From the IMG/VR virus record IMGVR_UViG_3300032293_001788, positions 1 to 30,870 of that record: a DNA stretch of 30,870 nt. One strand, given 5' to 3'. This DNA comes from a virus. Shown piece by piece: positions 4,776 to 30,609 of this stretch; position 1 is the stretch's first letter, and each line of letters opens with the position of its first letter. Below the pieces are notes generated by a model. It had not been told where the DNA came from, did not search any database, and saw only the letters and a program-made list of their open reading frames with translations. The position numbers were made by a program, and so were the translations under genes.

Positions 4776-6011
4776 TCAACTTATTATATCAAGGTTGCTG
4801 TATTTCTTGAATAATACTGGTTCTGGCGGGCAATTCATCCATTTTTCAAGCAATGTGCTATATACTTGTCTGAAATCGGTGCTAAACTCTACATCTTGAT
4901 TTTTTTGTAGTTTTAGGTTTGGTGCTTTGCCATATACACCACCTTTTATATTTGAGCCTAATACAAATAGCGGGGCAGCAGTCCCGTGGTCTGTACCAGC
5001 ACTATCATTTTCATTTGGACGACGACCAAACTCGCTAAATGTCATTGTAGTTACTTGATTATCAAGTTTATGACCTTCCAAATCTTTCTGAAAAGCAAAA
5101 AGTGCTTCAGATAGTTGAGACAATAGATTACCGTGATTGACTAGTTGATTGCTGTGTGTATCAAAGCCACCAATAGATACAAAATATACTCTGGTTGGCA
5201 ATCCGGCGTGTATTAGAGCAGCAACATTGCGTAATGAAGATGCCAGATTGCTAGTTGGATATTTATAAGAAGGCTTATAGGCATCCAACTTTTGTTGTAC
5301 TTTGCGTTCTGTTACCAATGTGTTCATTAGCGTTTGTTTTAGAAACGTGCTATTGTCATCACCGAGAATCTTGTCAGCATATGAACTTTCCAGCAACTTG
5401 CGTGTATCATCATTGTCGCGACGATTTATTCTATTTACAAAACCAAATGTTGAGTGGGGCTTTTTTCCGCCAAATGATTGCGGCGTGTTGCCTGTCATAT
5501 GTATTGCGGTAGGATCGTGGCTGTCAGATGGCATACCAGAACAAGCATTATCAAGAAAACGACCAATCCAGCCTGTAGAAGATGTTCTATCACTATCCAT
5601 CGCTGTTTCCCATATTTCGGTTGAACGAAAATGACTGCGATTTGGATTTGGATAACCAACATTTTGTATAATGCCCATCTTACCGCTGTTATACAAATCA
5701 AACATCTTGCTCATTGAAGGATGCAGACCGTGAGTACTGTTTAGTGCTATAGCGTCTTTTTTCTTGATGGCAATCTTTGGACGCAGATTATAATAGTTGC
5801 TGTCTTCATATGGCACTAGTGTATTCAATCCATCATTACCACCTGCCAATTGAACAAGCACAAGTATGCTCTTGTCTTTTTCTGGTTTTGGTGATGATGC
5901 CATTGCTGAACGAACAAGAAACTCTGGAGCAAACTGACCGAAAGCAAGCAGGCCAATGCCTGATGAAGACAACTTGATGAACTCTTTGCGTGTATGGGGT
6001 AGATTTTTCAT
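4776..6011 (-). CDS. DUF1501 family protein (alkaline-phosphatase-like superfamily)
   Basis: 411 residues from the ATG at 6011. An N-terminal export signal has a Tat-like motif (TRKEFIK) and the hydrophobic stretch GIGLLAFGQFAPEFL, as is usual for this family. Family motifs follow: VQLAGGNDGLNTLVPY (54-69), SHFRSTEIWETA, the GGFDTH segment, and TFSEFGRRPNENDSAGTDHG near the C-terminus, with conserved Asp/His residues resembling the metal sites of the sulfatase/alkaline phosphatase superfamily. Family proteins are exported in bacteria; the substrate is unknown. Four bases below the DUF1800 gene, its usual partner. Presence in a phage-like region is unexpected. Confidence 0.85.
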   Translation of the reverse strand: MKNLPHTRKEFIKLSSSGIGLLAFGQFAPEFLVRSAMASSPKPEKDKSILVLVQLAGGNDGLNTLVPYEDSNYYNLRPKIAIKKKDAIALNSTHGLHPSMSKMFDLYNSGKMGIIQNVGYPNPNRSHFRSTEIWETAMDSDRTSSTGWIGRFLDNACSGMPSDSHDPTAIHMTGNTPQSFGGKKPHSTFGFVNRINRRDNDDTRKLLESSYADKILGDDNSTFLKQTLMNTLVTERKVQQKLDAYKPSYKYPTSNLASSLRNVAALIHAGLPTRVYFVSIGGFDTHSNQLVNHGNLLSQLSEALFAFQKDLEGHKLDNQVTTMTFSEFGRRPNENDSAGTDHGTAAPLFVLGSNIKGGVYGKAPNLKLQKNQDVEFSTDFRQVYSTLLEKWMNCPPEPVLFKKYSNLDIIS

Positions 6012-6015
6012 ATGT

Positions 6016-7419
6016 TTAGCATAGTTGATATTCAGGTGATTGTAGTATTGTGACCGCAGCACGCTTCAATCTAAAGGTAGGTATGTTGCGTTCTTTTTTC
6101 AGGGTGGGGGTACCTAAAAATTTTTGTATGTTGCTTACAAGTTGTGGAGATGGATTTGATATAAATCTATTACACAATACATTTGCCGCCGTAGCAGCAT
6201 CCAACTTGGATAGTTCAGCCAACGAACTTTCAGAGAATGTAAATGTTGGATTGCCAATCTGCTTGGCATCATTCAACAATCTCTTTTCATCCGCATTCAA
6301 TACCTTTTCATCCAATACAGCGAATAGATTTTCAACCGTTTGGCGGCGTGCTTGTATAGTGCTTGAGTTTATCCAGTTCTTGCCGCCGACCCATCCACGT
6401 ACATTTGGCGGATAAAATGGCATCTGTCCCATACTTCTCAATGGTTGAGTAACCAATCTCTGTAATGGGGATACTTTGATTCCACTATCCTGCACCAGTC
6501 CGCAATAAAACTGAATAGGACTTTTTATATAGTTGTGCTTATACTGCTTGCTATAGAATATATTGCTGGCAAAAAACAAACCAAGCAATGCTCGCAGGCT
6601 ATAACTCGTTTTACTCCATTCTTTAGCAATAGCATCAAGATATTCAACACCAACTTCACTGTCAGTAAGATAAAACTTTATCATTTCTTGCGGCAAGAAT
6701 CTGCCAGCAGCAGGTTGGCGATATGCTATATCAATAACATCATCGCCGCTAAATCTGCCAGATGTATCAAATATGCTTTTTACTCCAGCATCGTGCTGTG
6801 GAGCACTTAGATAAAATCTTTGATTCTTTGCTCTATAGCCAGTAAATGCCTTGGCTGATTCTTTGATGTCTTTTTCATTATAGTTGCCTTCGCCAAGCAC
6901 AAACAACTCAAATAGTTCTCTGGCAAAATTTTCATTTGGAGCACGCTTGTCATTTCTGTTGAGGTCAAGATATTGTATCATTGCTGGCGAGCGTGATACA
7001 AACTTGGTAAGATTAGGAGCAGTGTTATATGCGTGCTTTGCTAGTATATCAAAATGTTGATGAACAGTTGCAGGATCTCGCACCTTGTCTGCTCCAATAA
7101 CATACACATCACTCAAAAAGAGATTCCATTTATAAAACGCACTATTTTCATATACAGATGCGTCTTGTATCCAACTTATAGCAAGATCATTTATGCCATT
7201 GCGTTGTTTGTTTTGTATTTCTCGACGCAATTTGTTGCGTTCTTCTACATCAGCACCTCGCATAGATGCTTGTAGTTCTTTTTCTTCTTGCTCAAACTTG
7301 GCTACAGACGCCGGTTTGGATATGCCACGGCTTGGTGCGTCGAGCGGAAACAACTTGTTGAGTGTACCACCCAATCCATCTTGTAGTGCCTGCTTACTCT
7401 GTCTTGGGTCGCAGACCAA
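6016..7419 (-). CDS. DUF1800 family protein, main part (frame broken near N-terminus)
   Basis: 467 codons carrying most of a DUF1800 protein: helical body, LDLNRNDKRAPNENFARELFELFVLGEGNYNEKDIKE-type core (about 150-190) with the ARELxELFxLG family signature, FTGYR, the VRGWVGGKNWINSST region, and a C-terminal LQSPEYQ. The first codons have no proper start (TTG after an in-frame TAG at about 7430). The true N-terminus, HLLNRAGWSAT, lies in the other frame at 7302-7523. A one-base deletion near 7395-7420 would explain this. The full gene would be 6016-7523, about 500 residues. Probably works with the DUF1501 protein; role unknown. Confidence 0.8.
   Translation of the reverse strand: MVCDPRQSKQALQDGLGGTLNKLFPLDAPSRGISKPASVAKFEQEEKELQASMRGADVEERNKLRREIQNKQRNGINDLAISWIQDASVYENSAFYKWNLFLSDVYVIGADKVRDPATVHQHFDILAKHAYNTAPNLTKFVSRSPAMIQYLDLNRNDKRAPNENFARELFELFVLGEGNYNEKDIKESAKAFTGYRAKNQRFYLSAPQHDAGVKSIFDTSGRFSGDDVIDIAYRQPAAGRFLPQEMIKFYLTDSEVGVEYLDAIAKEWSKTSYSLRALLGLFFASNIFYSKQYKHNYIKSPIQFYCGLVQDSGIKVSPLQRLVTQPLRSMGQMPFYPPNVRGWVGGKNWINSSTIQARRQTVENLFAVLDEKVLNADEKRLLNDAKQIGNPTFTFSESSLAELSKLDAATAANVLCNRFISNPSPQLVSNIQKFLGTPTLKKERNIPTFRLKRAAVTILQSPEYQLC
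6108..6118 (-). repeat. TTTAGGTACCC motif, copy 4 (inside DUF1800)
   Basis: Encodes FLGTP in the DUF1800 frame, about 100 nt before the DUF1501 start. Being coding, it may be chance, or an internal regulatory site for the DUF1501/LamG genes. Confidence 0.35.
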
Positions 7420-7753: not shown

Positions 7754-7865
7754 AGTGTTTGTAATATACAACAGTAATGGAAGATGTCAAATAGTTTCTT
7801 TCTTGGTAAGTTATTATAACTCGTTGAAAAATGCTTGTTTTTGACATATTATGCTATTTATATGT
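7754..7865. promoter_or_regulatory. Divergent promoter region
   Basis: Minus strand: TTGACA (7785-7790), 16-nt spacer, TATATT (7763-7768), directing the gene at 7577-7753 with almost no leader. Plus strand: TTGACA (7841-7846) upstream of the flavoprotein start at 7866; its -10 is poor (TATATG at short spacing). Confidence 0.55.
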
Positions 7866-8636
7866 ATGTCCAATTTTGAATCTACATTCCTAAAGCACAG
7901 AGCATTGCTCAAAGAACATTTTATGCTCAATGAAAATGCTGAGTATGAAGGCAAGTTGGACAAGATGATAGAACACCTCAAGGGCAAGAAGAAAGTTTTA
8001 TTTCTTACTACCAGCACTCGTTGGTCAGGCGACAAGCAAAAGCCAAAAAGCACTGTGCTCGCTGAACATATTGCTGAAGAAGTTGGCAAAAATGTTGAAC
8101 TTATTGACGTTGGTGCCTTGACAATACATTGCTGCGAAGGTAATGTAAGTAAAAATGAAGGAAACAACTGCGGAGTAAAAGAATCTGCTCTAAAAGATAA
8201 AGAAAAAAATCCGACCGGCGATCATCGTTGCTGGGCTTCATTCAATAACAAAGATGATGAACTATGGAAAATATCTAAGTCGCTCTTCGAGGCTGAGAGT
8301 GTTGTGTTTTTTGTTAGTGTTCGTTGGGGCCAAACTAATAGCGTATATCAAAAACTCATAGAACGCTTGACTTGGCTGGAAAATAGACACAGCACACTAA
8401 ACGAAGATAATATCATCAAAGACAAAGAAACAGGTATTGTCTTGATTGGTCAGAACTGGAATGGTGAGAATGTACTTGATACTCAAAAGCAAGTATTGAA
8501 GTTTTTTGGCTTCAAGGTTCCAGATGTGTTGTCATTCAACTGGCAGTATTTGGATAATCCAAAAGACGAATCACAAAGCAGCTACAAAAAAGCCCCCTCT
8601 GCGTTTGAAGAGGCTTTTGATGTCAAACTGAAATAA
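7866..8636 (+). CDS. Flavodoxin-fold NAD(P)H-dependent reductase
   Basis: 256 residues from MSNFESTF; five codons further upstream are open but less likely. After ~38 helical residues comes a flavodoxin-like domain: KKVLFLTTSTRWSGDKQKPKST (strand and phosphate-binding loop), LIDVGALTIHCCEGN, then ESVVFFVSVRWGQTNSVYQKLIERLTWL, similar to the second flavin-contact loop in FMN-dependent NADPH:quinone/FMN reductases. Probably binds FMN and transfers hydride from NAD(P)H. One of few plus-strand genes; its stop is 4 nt from the converging gene at 8641. Redox support for ThyX or bilin reduction is conceivable but speculative. Confidence 0.65.
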   Translation: MSNFESTFLKHRALLKEHFMLNENAEYEGKLDKMIEHLKGKKKVLFLTTSTRWSGDKQKPKSTVLAEHIAEEVGKNVELIDVGALTIHCCEGNVSKNEGNNCGVKESALKDKEKNPTGDHRCWASFNNKDDELWKISKSLFEAESVVFFVSVRWGQTNSVYQKLIERLTWLENRHSTLNEDNIIKDKETGIVLIGQNWNGENVLDTQKQVLKFFGFKVPDVLSFNWQYLDNPKDESQSSYKKAPSAFEEAFDVKLK

Positions 8637-9233: not shown

Positions 9234-9860
9234 TTATAATAACTTGAACGCAGCGATTGTATGCTGAAATGGGTTACCTTCTATGTTCTTTACCAGATTT
9301 AGCATCTCTGCTGCAACTTCTCGTATTTCCTTTTGAGCATCCGGCTTGTTGCGTAAAGACAAGAAGTGATAGAACGAACGCCAGTTGAACATAACATCAG
9401 CACAAATCTGGCTGTTGTACGTCTTAAAGAATCTGGCACTTTCCTTTACACGCTTCTTGTCCATACCTCTATTTACAAGATCTGCCACACACTTATGATA
9501 TAGTTCATTGCCCTTTTCTGTGTATGCTTGCAGCAAGTCCTTCCAGTCCTGCGGCCAATCATCGGGTATAAGAAACTTGTCCTGCTTGATTTCTTTGTAT
9601 CTGGCACTTTCACCATTCACAGATACACCAACTCGGTGCTTAATCAAATGAATATGGGAAGCGATGTCTGTATCTACAAGGAAATGAAGACTGCTTTTCT
9701 CAAACGGAGTATGATGTCCGTGGTCAGCAAGCATCTTTAGCAGAGCAGGTATGCGATTACGCTTTTCTTCTGTTATTTCTCTGCTGGTAGATGTCCAAGC
9801 CGAACAGGCGATTATTGTATCATCTCCATAGTATCCCAACAATTCTACTGTATTATTCAT
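9234..9860 (-). CDS. thyX: Flavin-dependent thymidylate synthase ThyX
   Basis: 208 residues. ThyX makes dTMP from dUMP using methylene-tetrahydrofolate, FAD and NADPH. The sequence has GHHTPFE (48-54), a KHRVGVSVNGESARY segment (74-88) that is the RHR-X7-S ThyX motif in its phage-like K-H-R form with one extra residue, and FNWRSFYHFLSLR with the usual Arg/His residues. Start chosen at 9860 because MNNTVELLG matches the family N-terminus and overlaps the HNH stop (ATGAATAA). A diverged copy of its first 19 codons lies at 10462-10521 beyond the HNH gene, so the gene's 5' end was replaced when the endonuclease inserted. Confidence 0.92.
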   Translation of the reverse strand: MNNTVELLGYYGDDTIIACSAWTSTSREITEEKRNRIPALLKMLADHGHHTPFEKSSLHFLVDTDIASHIHLIKHRVGVSVNGESARYKEIKQDKFLIPDDWPQDWKDLLQAYTEKGNELYHKCVADLVNRGMDKKRVKESARFFKTYNSQICADVMFNWRSFYHFLSLRNKPDAQKEIREVAAEMLNLVKNIEGNPFQHTIAAFKLL

Positions 9861-10428
9861 GTAATTCGTATTTTTTTGTTTTAGTATTAAATTTAATTTT
9901 TCCACTCTTTACAAGCGAATATGCAATTTTTTCAAGCGAGTCGTGCATACTTGAATGTTCTTCTTCATTGCTGTATAAACATAAATTCTTTAATTCATTA
10001 TTTAATTTATCCCCGTCTATATGATGAACCCCTTCTCCTTTACCATATCTCGTTCTTTTTAATTTTCTACCAATATAATTTTCCATAACCAGAATATGTT
10101 CTGGTCTATACATTTCCCATCCATTTTCTATTTCCAAATATTCTTTAGATTTAACATATCTATATCCTCTCTGTGAGACGTATTCGCATTTTTCCTTCCT
10201 GTTATCATAGCGAGGTTTATAAGGATATTTCTTACCTTTATTATAATCATTACCATATTGTCTCTGGAATTCACTTCTATCTAAATCAAATTTTCGTCTG
10301 CCCCTTAATTGAATTGCATCCCATGTTCTGTTAGGAAGAAGCCGCATTAACGCATCTTTTTCCATAGTTTCATAATTAGTTTTTATAATTAAATCTTCTT
10401 CTTTTGACCATATTTTATTTGTATTCAT
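9853..10428 (-). CDS. HNH homing endonuclease inserted at thyX
   Basis: 191 residues. The N-terminus (residues 6-45, WSKEEDLIIKTNYETM through NRTWDAIQLRGRR) is a Myb/SANT-like helix-turn-helix for DNA binding. The C-terminal HNH_3-type nuclease has RPEHILVMENYIGRKL, HHIDGDKLNNELKNL (His135, His136, Asn143) and a final His in EEEHSSMH. Its last codons overlap thyX, so it sits between a leftover thyX start and the working gene. Such free-standing HNH genes spread by cutting an empty thyX allele. Confidence 0.88.
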   Translation of the reverse strand: MNTNKIWSKEEDLIIKTNYETMEKDALMRLLPNRTWDAIQLRGRRKFDLDRSEFQRQYGNDYNKGKKYPYKPRYDNRKEKCEYVSQRGYRYVKSKEYLEIENGWEMYRPEHILVMENYIGRKLKRTRYGKGEGVHHIDGDKLNNELKNLCLYSNEEEHSSMHDSLEKIAYSLVKSGKIKFNTKTKKYELHE

Positions 10429-11932: not shown

Positions 11933-12529
11933 TTAGTTGTCCAAAAGATATTCTTTGTTTTTTGGGAGGTTTTTCACGGGAATATATTCACGCTCGGCCA
12001 ATTCTGGATTGGTCTTTGCTTCTTCAATATTTAGTGTTTTATACCATCCACCTCTATGTCCTCCACTTACGTGTAGTTCACCCGGCTTGCCAGAATATTC
12101 GCAGGTTCTGGCAGACAATATTTCAGCATAATGAACAATGCCATCAATATAGTTGCGATAACCATCCTTGATTTCATTTATATCTGGATACTTTCCAGAT
12201 TCTCCAAGTTTGTTCAGTTTTTCATCAAACTCAAGTTTGTAATAAAAGCGAAGCATACCAAACTTCTCTTTTACCTGCGTAGCAATAAACTTTGGCGGAT
12301 TTACTTGAAAAAATGCATTGCCATCATTCTGATCTCGGTCGGCTGGATCTATGGATATTCCAGTAGAATATAACTCGGTGCAGGCTTGACACATTGAATC
12401 AATAATATCATACCAGCCGTCGCTGCACTCAAAACCCCATCCCATACAAGAGTGTAGAACAGAAGTTTGTCTGTCCACGAATACACTCGGATATTTCTCA
12501 CAAAGTTGTTTGTCTAGATTTGGACTCAT
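11933..12529 (-). CDS. Conserved phage hypothetical with Cys/Gly/Trp motifs
   Basis: 198 residues. LCEKYPSVFVDR, CMGWGFECSDGWYDIIDSMCQAC, ATQVKEKFGMLRFYY and AEILSARTCEYSGKPGELHVSGGHRGGWYKTL are landmarks of a widespread phage and bacterial family that I know only as hypothetical. In many members the C-terminal part is a CxxC...C zinc knuckle; here only Cys-Glu-Tyr-Ser-Gly remains, so metal binding is doubtful. Follows the bilin reductase gene by 7 nt. Confidence 0.7.
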   Translation of the reverse strand: MSPNLDKQLCEKYPSVFVDRQTSVLHSCMGWGFECSDGWYDIIDSMCQACTELYSTGISIDPADRDQNDGNAFFQVNPPKFIATQVKEKFGMLRFYYKLEFDEKLNKLGESGKYPDINEIKDGYRNYIDGIVHYAEILSARTCEYSGKPGELHVSGGHRGGWYKTLNIEEAKTNPELAEREYIPVKNLPKNKEYLLDN

Positions 12530-12536
12530 AAAATTT

Positions 12537-13211
12537 TTACCATTTCAATTCTATCTCTGGAAATAGATGATTGTCAATGAAGTTCTTTACGTCTTCTTCT
12601 TTATGACCGCAGTTTATAAGAAAGCGTGATGTATGTATATTGTTTTTTTGATTGACGCAATAGTGATTGTGAGCAGGAGCATTATTGACATTTCCAATCG
12701 TCCCGCCAACATTTTCAATATAAAACTTCATACAATCCTTTGCCACATCAATGACTTGATTGAGTTCTTCATCTGTATTTACCATACCTGCCGCAATCAT
12801 ATTTGGACTAAAGATGCGTTTGCCCCAATCTGGCAGTTCTCTATCCTTTTTCCATACAAGGTCTTTGGTCTTTTCCTTGAACCATATATTCATAGGATGA
12901 TTTTCATCACCCATACTAAAGTCAAGAAATACACCTGTGATTTTATTGGCTCCGCATATTACGTCAAAGCCAAAAATAGGAGAACTATCATCGAGGTGTG
13001 GAAAGATGCAGATATGCATAATCCACATCTTTTTTGACGATGATACATCCAATACTTCAATATGACCACGGCGAAATCTTAGATTACGAAATATTCTATT
13101 TGTCCAAGCATATTTGGATAGTTCTTGTAGTTCTATCTCAATACTATCCTTGGCCAGCAACAAATATAAGTCGCTGCTCAAGGTTCGCATCTTGTCAAAT
13201 ATAACACTCAT
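12537..13211 (-). CDS. Ferredoxin-dependent bilin reductase (PcyA/PcyX type)
   Basis: 224 residues. The family reduces biliverdin IXalpha to phycobilins with electrons from ferredoxin. Seen: RRGHIEVLDV (Glu52), KMWIMHICIFPH (His66) and SPIFGFDVICGANKITGVFLDFS (Asp83), matching the Glu, His and Asp active-site residues of PcyA, and a C-terminal HYCVNQKNNIHTSRFL...FIDNHLFPE, the usual YCxxQxxN...LFP ending. Start and heme oxygenase stop overlap as TAATG, so the two are coupled. Product could be phycoerythrobilin, as for PcyX from viral metagenomes, or phycocyanobilin; a PcyX assignment is inference from the non-cyanophage-like context. Confidence 0.85.
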   Translation of the reverse strand: MSVIFDKMRTLSSDLYLLLAKDSIEIELQELSKYAWTNRIFRNLRFRRGHIEVLDVSSSKKMWIMHICIFPHLDDSSPIFGFDVICGANKITGVFLDFSMGDENHPMNIWFKEKTKDLVWKKDRELPDWGKRIFSPNMIAAGMVNTDEELNQVIDVAKDCMKFYIENVGGTIGNVNNAPAHNHYCVNQKNNIHTSRFLINCGHKEEDVKNFIDNHLFPEIELKW

Positions 13212-13765
13212 TACAACCAAAGATCACGTTTGACTCCGCATATTTCATCAACAATATCAATCGTATAACCAAATGCCTTATTTGCTTCTTCTGCCAAGTT
13301 TGGCGTAGCAAACTCACGCATCTTCATACGCAGTGCAGGCAGATTATGCTCAAAATCATACATTCTACCAGTGCTTGGCACAAGGCTCTTTAGCATTTGA
13401 CCACCAAACATATCACCAGCAAATCTTACATAAAAGTGAGCAGCAACCTTTTCCTTGTCATCAAGATTGATAAGATAGTTGTAATATAGTGTAGTACATA
13501 GGCGAATAATACATCTCTTACCATTTACAGTATTTGCTTCTTCAAGGTCTGCCTTGATTTTATCTGAACGCTTGATGCCATCAAACTCTTGTAGTATACC
13601 AAATCTATTGGCGGCATATTCAAGCCCATCATATACCAACGCAAACTGAGTCAGATAATCCATATATTCATATGGCGTAAGTGCCTTTGCCATAAGCAAA
13701 CGCATAAATACGGTATTCTCTGCTTTAGTATGACTTTCTGCTGTAAGTTCTCTTAGTGTGCTCAT
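13211..13765 (-). CDS. ho1: Heme oxygenase (biliverdin-forming)
   Basis: 184 residues. Opens heme to biliverdin IXalpha, CO and Fe(II) using O2 and reduced ferredoxin or a reductase. LRELTAESHTKAEN carries His12, the expected axial heme ligand. HFYVRFAGDMFGGQML (110-125) is the distal helix with the family's G-D-x-x-G-G motif. LTQFALVYDGLEYA corresponds to the family's Y-L-x-x-x-x-x-Y-x-x-L-E segment. Shorter than the ~240 residues of cyanobacterial enzymes. Overlaps the bilin reductase gene, its natural partner, by one base. Cytoplasmic. Confidence 0.88.
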   Translation of the reverse strand: MSTLRELTAESHTKAENTVFMRLLMAKALTPYEYMDYLTQFALVYDGLEYAANRFGILQEFDGIKRSDKIKADLEEANTVNGKRCIIRLCTTLYYNYLINLDDKEKVAAHFYVRFAGDMFGGQMLKSLVPSTGRMYDFEHNLPALRMKMREFATPNLAEEANKAFGYTIDIVDEICGVKRDLWL

Positions 13766-13773
13766 AAGTTATA

Positions 13774-14004
13774 TCATTTCTTGGTTAGCCAAATATAAAA
13801 TGGCTCAAAAATATTATCTATCGTTTTATTTACTACATATACCATTGGTAGCGTGAACCAAATCAATGGTCCGCACATCAAAAAGAATGTAATCTTTTGC
13901 GGCTGTAATATAACCTTACCAAAGTAAATAGGATACGTGATTGCTCCAATGAGCGACCATAAGCATCCGAATATAAACAATCCTTCAAGTAGTATATTAT
14001 TCAT
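13774..14004 (-). CDS. Small membrane protein with two or three spans
   Basis: 76 residues: ILLEGLFIFGCLWSLIGAITYPIYFG, then ITFFLMCGPLIWFTLPMVYVV, and a short polar end. Probably in the inner membrane. Function unknown. The ATG overlaps the metallophosphoesterase stop by 8 nt, and its own stop lies 8 nt from the heme oxygenase ATG, so it belongs to the bilin operon. Confidence 0.6.
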   Translation of the reverse strand: MNNILLEGLFIFGCLWSLIGAITYPIYFGKVILQPQKITFFLMCGPLIWFTLPMVYVVNKTIDNIFEPFYIWLTKK

Positions 14005-14686
14005 TTTCGGACATTATGCTTACAATTCCATCTTTGTCAATATCAAAAATAGTAGGCTTGCCCCAAACAAGATATGCCTCGTTTAGCATAGATACATTAG
14101 CATATGTTGTTTTGGGACCAATATAATTTGTTTGACCGTCGAAGTGAATATGTCCAAAAATATGTAGTTTAGGGGCAATACGCAGTGTAGCATCGAGCAA
14201 ATCTTTGCAGCCTACATTTTCTGTGGTCTCGAATTCTGGACGAAGTGCCTTATCGCAAATGCCATACGGAGGACCGTGCGTAATCAATACATCAGTATCA
14301 TCTGGTATAATATCCCAATGATGCTTGATTTCTTCGCCTCTATGGCGATTGAATGCCCAGTTATAGAAAAAAGGCTGAATAGGCGATCCGAAAAATTTTA
14401 GTCCATTTATTGTGCAAGAAGTTTCCTCAAGATAAATCAAATCTGGAAACTCTGTCAGCAATCCTCTGAACAACGATGGATCTTTTTCACAGATCCAATC
14501 GTGATTGCCTGCGATAAAAATCTTGTGCTTATGAGGATGCGTATTGAACCATCTCAAAAAAATCATAGCATCACGCACGTTCCCCTCAGAGGAAAAATCT
14601 CCCGCGTGAATCAACACATCGCCATCTGGTATTTTTATACCAAAATGGAGACCATGGGTGTCAGAGATGGATACAATACGTGTCAT
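13997..14686 (-). CDS. Calcineurin-like metallophosphoesterase (MPPED/UPF0046-like)
   Basis: 229 residues from MTRIVSISDTHG. Metal-binding motifs in order: Asp9-x-His11, HAGDF (Asp30), IAGNHDW (Asn61, His62), LITHGPP and FGHIHFDG. DVLIHAGDFS followed by FLRWFNTHPHKHKIFIAGNHD is close to the MPPED/UPF0046 group of small phosphodiesterases. It hydrolyses phosphodiesters with two metal ions; the substrate cannot be read from sequence. Coupled (ATGA) to a 29-residue membrane peptide upstream. Confidence 0.85.
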   Translation of the reverse strand: MTRIVSISDTHGLHFGIKIPDGDVLIHAGDFSSEGNVRDAMIFLRWFNTHPHKHKIFIAGNHDWICEKDPSLFRGLLTEFPDLIYLEETSCTINGLKFFGSPIQPFFYNWAFNRHRGEEIKHHWDIIPDDTDVLITHGPPYGICDKALRPEFETTENVGCKDLLDATLRIAPKLHIFGHIHFDGQTNYIGPKTTYANVSMLNEAYLVWGKPTIFDIDKDGIVSIMSENE

Positions 14687-14772
14687 AACTTGATTAGAGC
14701 AACAATAATAGCCAATATTGCCATACAAGCAAGCACTTTCTTTATGATTTGGAATTTTTGTTCAGATGTCAT
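14683..14772 (-). CDS. 29-residue membrane peptide
   Basis: MTSEQKFQIIKKVLACMAIL followed by AIIVALIKL: a short cytoplasmic stretch and one hydrophobic span. Its stop overlaps the metallophosphoesterase start (ATGA). Too small for homology. Overlap, hydrophobic pattern and tight spacing to the upstream stop are the evidence. Confidence 0.4.
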   Translation of the reverse strand: MTSEQKFQIIKKVLACMAILAIIVALIKL

Positions 14773-29407: not shown

Positions 29408-30223
29408 ATGATAAACTTTGTCAACCTAAACAATGATACTTTTATATACTTTCTCGGATGGTACTGGGCAGATGGATGGGGAAAAACAAATGCAATATCC
29501 TGTAAATATGAGGATATGGTATATATGGAAAAATGGATAGAATCTCACGGGTTCACGGTCAAAAAACACCAACGAATGAAAAATGGTAAGCCTTGGGGAA
29601 GCCTTCAAGGAATAGTTTACTTCTCTTATTCGGATTTCAATAAAAAGTTTCTTTCTGAAAACGGATTCAATACTAAATCAAAAGATTCCCCACAAATAAT
29701 ATTGTCAAAAATATCAAAAGAAAAACATCATCTATTCTGGCGAGGATTTTTTGATGGCGATGGTCATATCCAAGTTCCAACCAAAAATAGACGCAAGAAG
29801 GAGGTTGCTTTCTGGGGAACTATTGACCAAGATTGGTGTTTGCTTGTTGAGGTGCTAAACAATCTTGATATAAAACATATCATAAGAACATACCAAAGAA
29901 AATGTGGCGATTCTTCTTGTGTTGTTTTTTACAAATACGATGATATAATCAAGTTTTCGGATTATATATATAAAGGATATGACAGCAACCCGATAGGGAT
30001 GAAAAGAAAATGGGATAAGTTCCACTTTCTAAAAAGCAAGGGAAAAAAAGAAAAAACATCTTCTATGAAAGGGGTGTGCTTCAATAAGAAAAATGGATAT
30101 TGGAAAGCGACTTTATTACAATCCGAAACTAAAATAAAAGAAAAACATATCGGATGGTATAAAACGGAAAAAGAAGCAATGAAGGCAAGAATGGAAGCGA
30201 TCTGTACTTTACAGATGCGATAG
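29408..30223 (+). CDS. LAGLIDADG homing endonuclease with AP2-like domain
   Basis: 271 residues. Two LAGLIDADG helices: YFLGWYWADG (14-23) and LFWRGFFDGDG (109-119), each ending in the acidic residue needed for cutting, so a single-chain enzyme with two active-site halves. Residues ~218-265 (SSMKGVCFNKKNGYWKATL, IGWYKTEKEAMKAR) form an AP2/ERF-like DNA-binding domain, more often joined to HNH endonucleases. On the opposite strand to both neighbours and not within a recognisable gene, so free-standing. Confidence 0.85.
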   Translation: MINFVNLNNDTFIYFLGWYWADGWGKTNAISCKYEDMVYMEKWIESHGFTVKKHQRMKNGKPWGSLQGIVYFSYSDFNKKFLSENGFNTKSKDSPQIILSKISKEKHHLFWRGFFDGDGHIQVPTKNRRKKEVAFWGTIDQDWCLLVEVLNNLDIKHIIRTYQRKCGDSSCVVFYKYDDIIKFSDYIYKGYDSNPIGMKRKWDKFHFLKSKGKKEKTSSMKGVCFNKKNGYWKATLLQSETKIKEKHIGWYKTEKEAMKARMEAICTLQMR

Positions 30224-30240
30224 GAGATGCCCAAATTTTG

Positions 30241-30609
30241 TCAAGAACGTTTCTTCTTTATATAATCGCTGTTGATGAAATCTTCTGGCTTCATTGCTGC
30301 TTTCTTTTGATTGCAACTATGACAGCATACAGCAAAGTTAGATGGGCTAAATGGGTCACCCCCACCTGACTTGGGCATATAATGGTCTACCGTGGCTTGC
30401 TCTCCACGCTTGATAGATTTCATCTTTAGATTTGTTTTACCGCAATAAGAACAAATCAAACAGCCCTTGCTTTTTATTTCTTGTTTTAGAAAAGCGGCTC
30501 GGGCTCTATTCCATCGCTTACTCTCCATACTGGAATATACTTTGTTCAGTAATACCAGATGTGCATAACTTTTTATATGCACATCTTCCATATGGATAGT
30601 ATGTTTCAT
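30241..30609 (-). CDS. HNH endonuclease with Cys4 zinc site
   Basis: 122 residues. CSYCGK (Cys53, Cys56), ATVDHYMPKSGGGDPFSPSNFAVCCHSCNQKKAA (Asp75-His76, Asn91, Cys96, Cys99): a complete HNH_1/HNH_5-type nuclease with a structural zinc. Could be a homing or packaging-associated nuclease. Abuts the stop of the upstream gene and converges with the LAGLIDADG gene (17 nt apart). Confidence 0.85.
   Translation of the reverse strand: MKHTIHMEDVHIKSYAHLVLLNKVYSSMESKRWNRARAAFLKQEIKSKGCLICSYCGKTNLKMKSIKRGEQATVDHYMPKSGGGDPFSPSNFAVCCHSCNQKKAAMKPEDFINSDYIKKKRS

Follow-up and report, generated by a model that had tools for sequence, protein, structure and literature searches.

A heme oxygenase (HO) and a ferredoxin-dependent bilin reductase (FDBR), encoded in overlapping frames, likely form a two-gene auxiliary metabolic operon by which a large T4-like phage makes a phycobilin. 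The window, by which we mean the whole stretch of DNA analyzed, is a 30,870-base IMG/VR virus record and a fragment. The pair and the genes around it are as follows.

9234..9905, minus strand: thyX, flavin-dependent thymidylate synthase (PF02511, 5.8e-32; TIGR02170 above cut-off)
11933..12529, minus strand: uncharacterized 198-aa protein (MSPNLDKQLCEKYP...), directly downstream of the FDBR
12537..13211, minus strand: FDBR, 224 aa, start ATG at 13211-13209 (PF05996, 2.1e-14)
13211..13765, minus strand: HO, 184 aa, axial His12, distal motif GDMFGGQ (PF01126, 1e-15)
13774..14004, minus strand: small hydrophobic ORF, 76 aa, directly upstream of the HO
13997..14728, minus strand: calcineurin-like metallophosphoesterase (PF00149, 3.6e-10)

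An earlier note on this DNA had proposed the gene pair, and both reading frames lie exactly where it placed them, with TAATG holding the HO stop and the FDBR start in a one-base overlap. Protein families, solved structures and AlphaFold models, the last built from viral alignments, agree on both identities. The HO has the proximal His12 named in that note, a distal GDxxGGQ motif (G117-D118 and G121-G122-Q123) and an all-helical fold; its sequence matches heme oxygenases among PDB entries, and its model (mean pLDDT 95.4) resembles PDB structures of heme oxygenases from bacteria and humans, with TM up to 0.84. The FDBR scores 54.2 bits against Pfam Fe_bilin_red PF05996 (cut-off 31) and matches phrog_7278 (6e-18); among solved structures its best match is PcyX (5owg, 5e-47), and PcyA follows at ~1e-11. 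Its model (mean pLDDT 93.7) adopts the alpha/beta/alpha fold of the FDBRs, and Foldseek returned PcyA and PcyX first and also PebA, PebB and PebS, with E down to 1e-12. The phylogeny that the note had named as a check likewise placed the enzyme among the bilin reductases. Chance is excluded by the open frames, the Pfam matches above cut-off, the synteny in independent contigs and the dN/dS values described below. Judged by its sequence, the pair very probably converts heme to a bile pigment, blue-green or pink in color.

The surroundings of the pair are conserved. thyX, the metallophosphoesterase and the small upstream ORF were found as previously described, and the order metallophosphoesterase-HO-FDBR-198-aa protein-thyX recurs in the related contigs L003 and L004 and, for the most part, in L005. 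In these three contigs the metallophosphoesterase upstream of the HO is 67-79% identical to that of the window, and the 198-aa protein, for which profile searches found no family match, is 47-56% identical and adjoins or lies near the FDBR; thyX, also part of this neighborhood, is 84-91% identical in related contigs. The 76-aa hydrophobic ORF had no match in Pfam or PHROG and has a weak relative (34%) in L003. Elsewhere in the window, a DUF1800 and DUF1501 pair (4776-7419, minus strand) is 75-80% identical to a pair in L004 and is probably host-derived; phage records held no full-length DUF1800, the only match being one of 73 residues in a 6.9-kb fecal record, and DUF1800 relatives in plasmids gave no host signal. 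A flavodoxin/FMN-reductase-like protein encoded on the opposite strand (7851-8636, plus), with 73-79% identity to its counterparts in L004 and L005, is a conceivable electron carrier. The segment 15001-16000 has a GC content of 60% against ~38%, and its minus strand encodes pentapeptide repeats (PF00805, 5.7e-34); this island looks either recently acquired or made up of repeats.

Marker genes in the related contigs identify the lineage as large T4-like aquatic phages, the window itself being a fragment without them. The L004 contig (G002, 184.8 kb) carries the major capsid protein gp23, the portal gp20, a prohead protease, a T4-type terminase, PhoH, DnaK and HSP20, and shares gp23 with the L005 contig (G003, 297 kb). 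Both contigs also have tmRNA genes (L099:8603-8996 and L114:7795-8185; RF00023, ~95 bits), for which ARAGORN predicts long, unusual tag peptides, and L005 has 36 predicted tRNA genes. Nine related records contained no phytochrome PHY domain, phycobilisome globin or plant-type ferredoxin (PF00111) in searches that detected their positive controls, and no photosystem II (PSII) reaction-centre match above cut-off, the matches below it being broken by stops. A Photo_RC match in the window (30121-30360) was rejected as spurious, as it lies below cut-off and contains two stops. No AlaS-family (ALA synthase, PF00155) gene was present in contigs L003-L006, and a search for pmoC gave no match, its controls being likewise silent. 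Because the related records are fragments, these absences do not amount to proof.

The catalytic residues set the reductase apart from the viral enzyme of known structure that it most resembles. Glu52, His66 and Asp83, which the earlier note had recognized as a retained triad, correspond in the alignment to Glu76, His88 and Asp105 of the PcyA from Synechocystis. The triad is indeed present; what the note missed is that the solved PcyX and the Mosig enzyme have Asp at the first position, which places the window enzyme in a separate Glu/Gln phage clade. When the viral reductases are aligned, 67 rows, those of PcyX 5owg and Pelagibacter phage Mosig among them, have Asp at the site of PcyA Glu76. 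The window shares Glu with L002-L005 and a number of further phages, L006 and L021 have Gln, and no row departs from the equivalents of His88 and Asp105. In the maximum-likelihood tree, every phage row with Glu or Gln falls in a single clade (96/96), and the window with L003, L004 and L005 forms a subclade (100/98). PcyX 5owg and Mosig fall in a separate clade (100/99), so that the window FDBR does not group with 5owg. The Glu/Gln clade also stands apart from cyanobacterial and cyanophage PcyA, and the NCBIfam PcyA equivalog NF002760 gives the window FDBR 80 bits against a cut-off of 206. The Gln-type reductases (L006:9998-10663 and L021:7998-8672) belong to phages that also have no Shine-Dalgarno enrichment, and that of L021 additionally has Ser in place of the neighboring His (PcyA His74).

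These relationships bear on the product. Were the window reductase a PcyX, it would yield phycoerythrobilin (PEB), in keeping with its far better match to PcyX 5owg than to PcyA and with the PEB made by those viral FDBRs of two-gene cassettes that were characterized before the freshwater phage CB_2 (PMC11480375). We consider PEB improbable, given the Glu at the position of the PcyX Asp, the separate and well-supported clade, and the FDBR of CB_2, which is described as being without the "PcyX specific" Asp55 and made phycocyanobilin (PCB) in vitro (PMC11480375). Asp55 is presumably the Glu/Asp position of our alignment, the 5owg chain seemingly carrying an eight-residue tag, and from the reported lack of this residue the CB_2 enzyme may belong to the Glu clade. 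Because an enzyme without Asp55 makes PCB and the window enzyme has Glu at that position, we somewhat favor PCB as its predicted product. Restoring Glu in place of the Asp of PcyX reportedly did not convert that enzyme into a PcyA, so that the product is not fixed by this one residue.

The cassette is by no means rare in viruses. At least 514 IMG/VR stretches encode a relative according to a pattern scan of viral contigs, and among the best 80 of these, nearly all loci with sufficient room have an HO directly upstream of the FDBR or one or two genes before it, a gene being inserted between the two in a few. Among isolated phages, Pelagibacter phage Mosig has the pair. A scan of genome contigs matched four cellular contigs, with a linked HO in 4/4, and the three loci long enough to place all fell inside the Asp phage clade; from the presence of the HO in all four and from this placement, we regard them as probable phage sequence that was binned with bacteria. 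A survey of 385 alphaproteobacterial genomes gave three with a match to PF05996; two of these matches exceed the cut-off, and one is an HO-FDBR cellular contig of this kind. No bacterial donor emerged from the genome contig scan or the 385 genomes, and a plasmid search gave no match.

Some cassettes hold a third gene. In a group of Asp-type viral loci, HO and FDBR are separated by a flavin-dependent tryptophan-halogenase-family gene whose frame overlaps theirs (L032:5967-8693; PF04820, 3e-93); the family assignment applies to L032 only, a similar ORF being present in L063, L064, L069 and L074 and the same gap only in L033-L035 and L065. The insertion suggests a possibly halogenated bilin, and we found no paper on a halogenase within HO-FDBR cassettes. 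A relative of carbon-nitrogen hydrolases (PF00795, tested in L091) lies between HO and FDBR at L090:6916-7968 and L091:7108-7968, both in contigs binned with bacteria. A third cassette gene of the alaS type was considered and rejected: the sole full-length aminotransferase match (L013 contig) is an ordinary class-I aminotransferase, and the extra gene of the marine-type Asp loci is the tryptophan halogenase.

Both genes are kept functional by purifying selection, the FDBR more strongly. In unsaturated pairs among the window and L002, L003, L004 and L005, dN/dS was 0.03-0.12 for the FDBR and 0.07-0.30 for the HO, values that are rough owing to large synonymous distances. The greater constraint on the FDBR suggests that the reduced bilin matters, and selection probably acts on this bilin and not just on the supply of iron or CO. 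In the mechanism we propose, the HO would open the ring of host heme, yielding biliverdin IX-alpha and setting free Fe2+ and CO, and the FDBR, encoded on the same presumed message, would take up the biliverdin made by the HO; the overlapping frames make co-translation probable. The FDBR would then reduce biliverdin to a phycobilin, likelier PCB than PEB, with electrons from ferredoxin supplied by the host. With no PF00111 gene in the related contigs, the electron donor would come from the host or from another protein.

The pair might instead serve to strip iron from host heme and perhaps to release CO, the FDBR only clearing biliverdin that would otherwise inhibit the HO or be toxic. Iron supply has been proposed for such cassettes (PMC11480375), and it is favored by the lack of PHY domains and phycobilisome globins in the related contigs, in searches that did detect their positive controls. 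Those contigs are fragmentary, however, and a bilin-binding protein may come from the host; moreover, an FDBR that is more conserved than the HO and practically never missing speaks more for a product that the phage requires than for a disposable pull reaction. We therefore regard the iron explanation as possible but doubtful. The stronger constraint on the FDBR disfavors iron release alone, the host signals disfavor support of phycobilisomes, and the bilin may still act as a chromophore or in redox reactions.

Those host signals favor Bacteroidota over cyanobacteria but conflict with one another, and they do not settle between Bacteroidota and other bacteria. Shine-Dalgarno sequences precede 51/657 genes of this lineage (0-10% per record, 3-7% when shuffled), which is no enrichment, and Flavobacterium and Cellulophaga phages show none either. 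The proportion is likewise low in L054, another Glu-clade contig (12% of 17 genes), and intermediate in S-PM2 and P-SSM2; the Microcystis phages and the majority of the other phages with an FDBR are clearly enriched (33-71%). Bacteroidia ribosomes disregard Shine-Dalgarno signals, and Bacteroidia start sites carry adenines at -3, -6, -12 and -13 (PMC9976891). This adenine pattern is seen at -3 and -12 in a Flavobacterium phage and is absent from the present lineage, which weakens the case for a Bacteroidota host. A T at -1 resembles a Cellulophaga phage, and a scan for Bacteroidota promoter motifs gave a weak excess that was not specific. Bacteroidota hosts have been predicted for large freshwater phages in which a comparable structural block includes a bS21 gene (PMC9723584). 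Taken together, a Bacteroidota host is in our judgment a roughly even prospect, with part of what is left falling to cyanobacteria, which are unlikely, and the remainder to other bacteria.

The cyanobacterial alternative is that of an ordinary cyanophage whose bilin feeds the phycobilisomes of a freshwater host. PCB is a cyanobacterial pigment, and the gp23 of L004 is nearest to that of Microcystis phage Mel-JY01 (57.8%), slightly ahead of Flavobacterium phage immuto (56%) and well ahead of Rhodothermus phage RM378 (37.5%); the terminase and protease of the lineage are likewise nearest to Mel-JY01. The Shine-Dalgarno counts of Microcystis phages are nonetheless much higher (12/36 in LMM01, Fisher p 2.5e-5; 15/39 in Mel-JY01, Fisher p 4e-7), the tmRNAs of L004 and L005 are of the general type RF00023 and not of the cyanobacterial type, the nine related records have neither a PSII reaction-centre gene above cut-off nor a phycobilisome protein, and the FDBR lies outside cyanobacterial and cyanophage PcyA in the tree. 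A photosynthesis aid of this kind thus seems unlikely. The earlier view that the neighborhood does not look cyanophage-like holds insofar as the phage is not obviously a cyanophage; to be added are the T4-like character of the lineage and the conflict among host signals.

The earlier note had attributed such cassettes to cyanophages and uncultured marine viruses, a range that is correct but incomplete, as freshwater hemO-pcyA/X phages and the SAR11 phage Mosig have also been published (PMC11480375). Its question of what an HO and a reductase do in a phage that is not obviously a cyanophage is the one discussed for the published cassettes (PMC11480375). One close parallel is CB_2, a large freshwater phage with vHemO and vPcyA/X and a presumed heterotrophic host, whose FDBR, by its description, shares with that of the window the absence of the PcyX-specific Asp (PMC11480375). 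Unlike the window-related contigs, which have no PF00155 gene and no Shine-Dalgarno enrichment, CB_2 carries alaS and has a proposed Methylocystis host (PMC11480375). The PcyX of uncultured marine viruses (EBK42635, 5owg) occurs with ho1 in the same HO-FDBR order and is the closest solved FDBR, but it belongs to the other clade and carries Asp in place of the window's Glu. Mosig (EXVC030M), an isolated phage of SAR11 with T4-type neck genes and thus a heterotrophic host, shares the overlapping pair, whereas its Asp-type FDBR is 38-40% identical to that of the window and its cassette adjoins 2OG-Fe(II) oxygenases, ferrochelatase and neck genes in place of thyX and metallophosphoesterase. PcyA of Synechocystis and of cyanophages S-SSM4 and P-SSM7 has the Glu/His/Asp triad and the fold in common with the window enzyme, yet it lies outside the phage clade and is only ~18-26% identical.

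The cassette itself, its occurrence in freshwater phages and in phages of heterotrophs, and a PCB-making reductase are thus already published (PMC11480375). Two things are new: reductases with Glu or Gln form a many-membered clade distinct from PcyX, and this clade is represented in a T4-like lineage that shows no Shine-Dalgarno enrichment and in which the other tetrapyrrole and photosynthesis genes that we looked for were not found. Phage bilin cassettes were first explained as aids to photosynthesis in cyanobacterial hosts; a lineage in which no PSII or phycobilisome genes were found, and in which the FDBR is the more constrained gene, sharpens the question of why phages of heterotrophs make phycobilins. 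The division between the Glu/Gln and Asp clades offers a sequence-based prediction of the product, and two small genes make the question tractable. Bacteroidota are not known to make or use phycobilins. That large T4-like phages of Bacteroidota keep a PCB-making operon under selection is a tentative proposal, which we hold to be rather unlikely in full; if true, it would point to a non-photosynthetic use of the pigment, in light signaling, redox protection or the control of heme.
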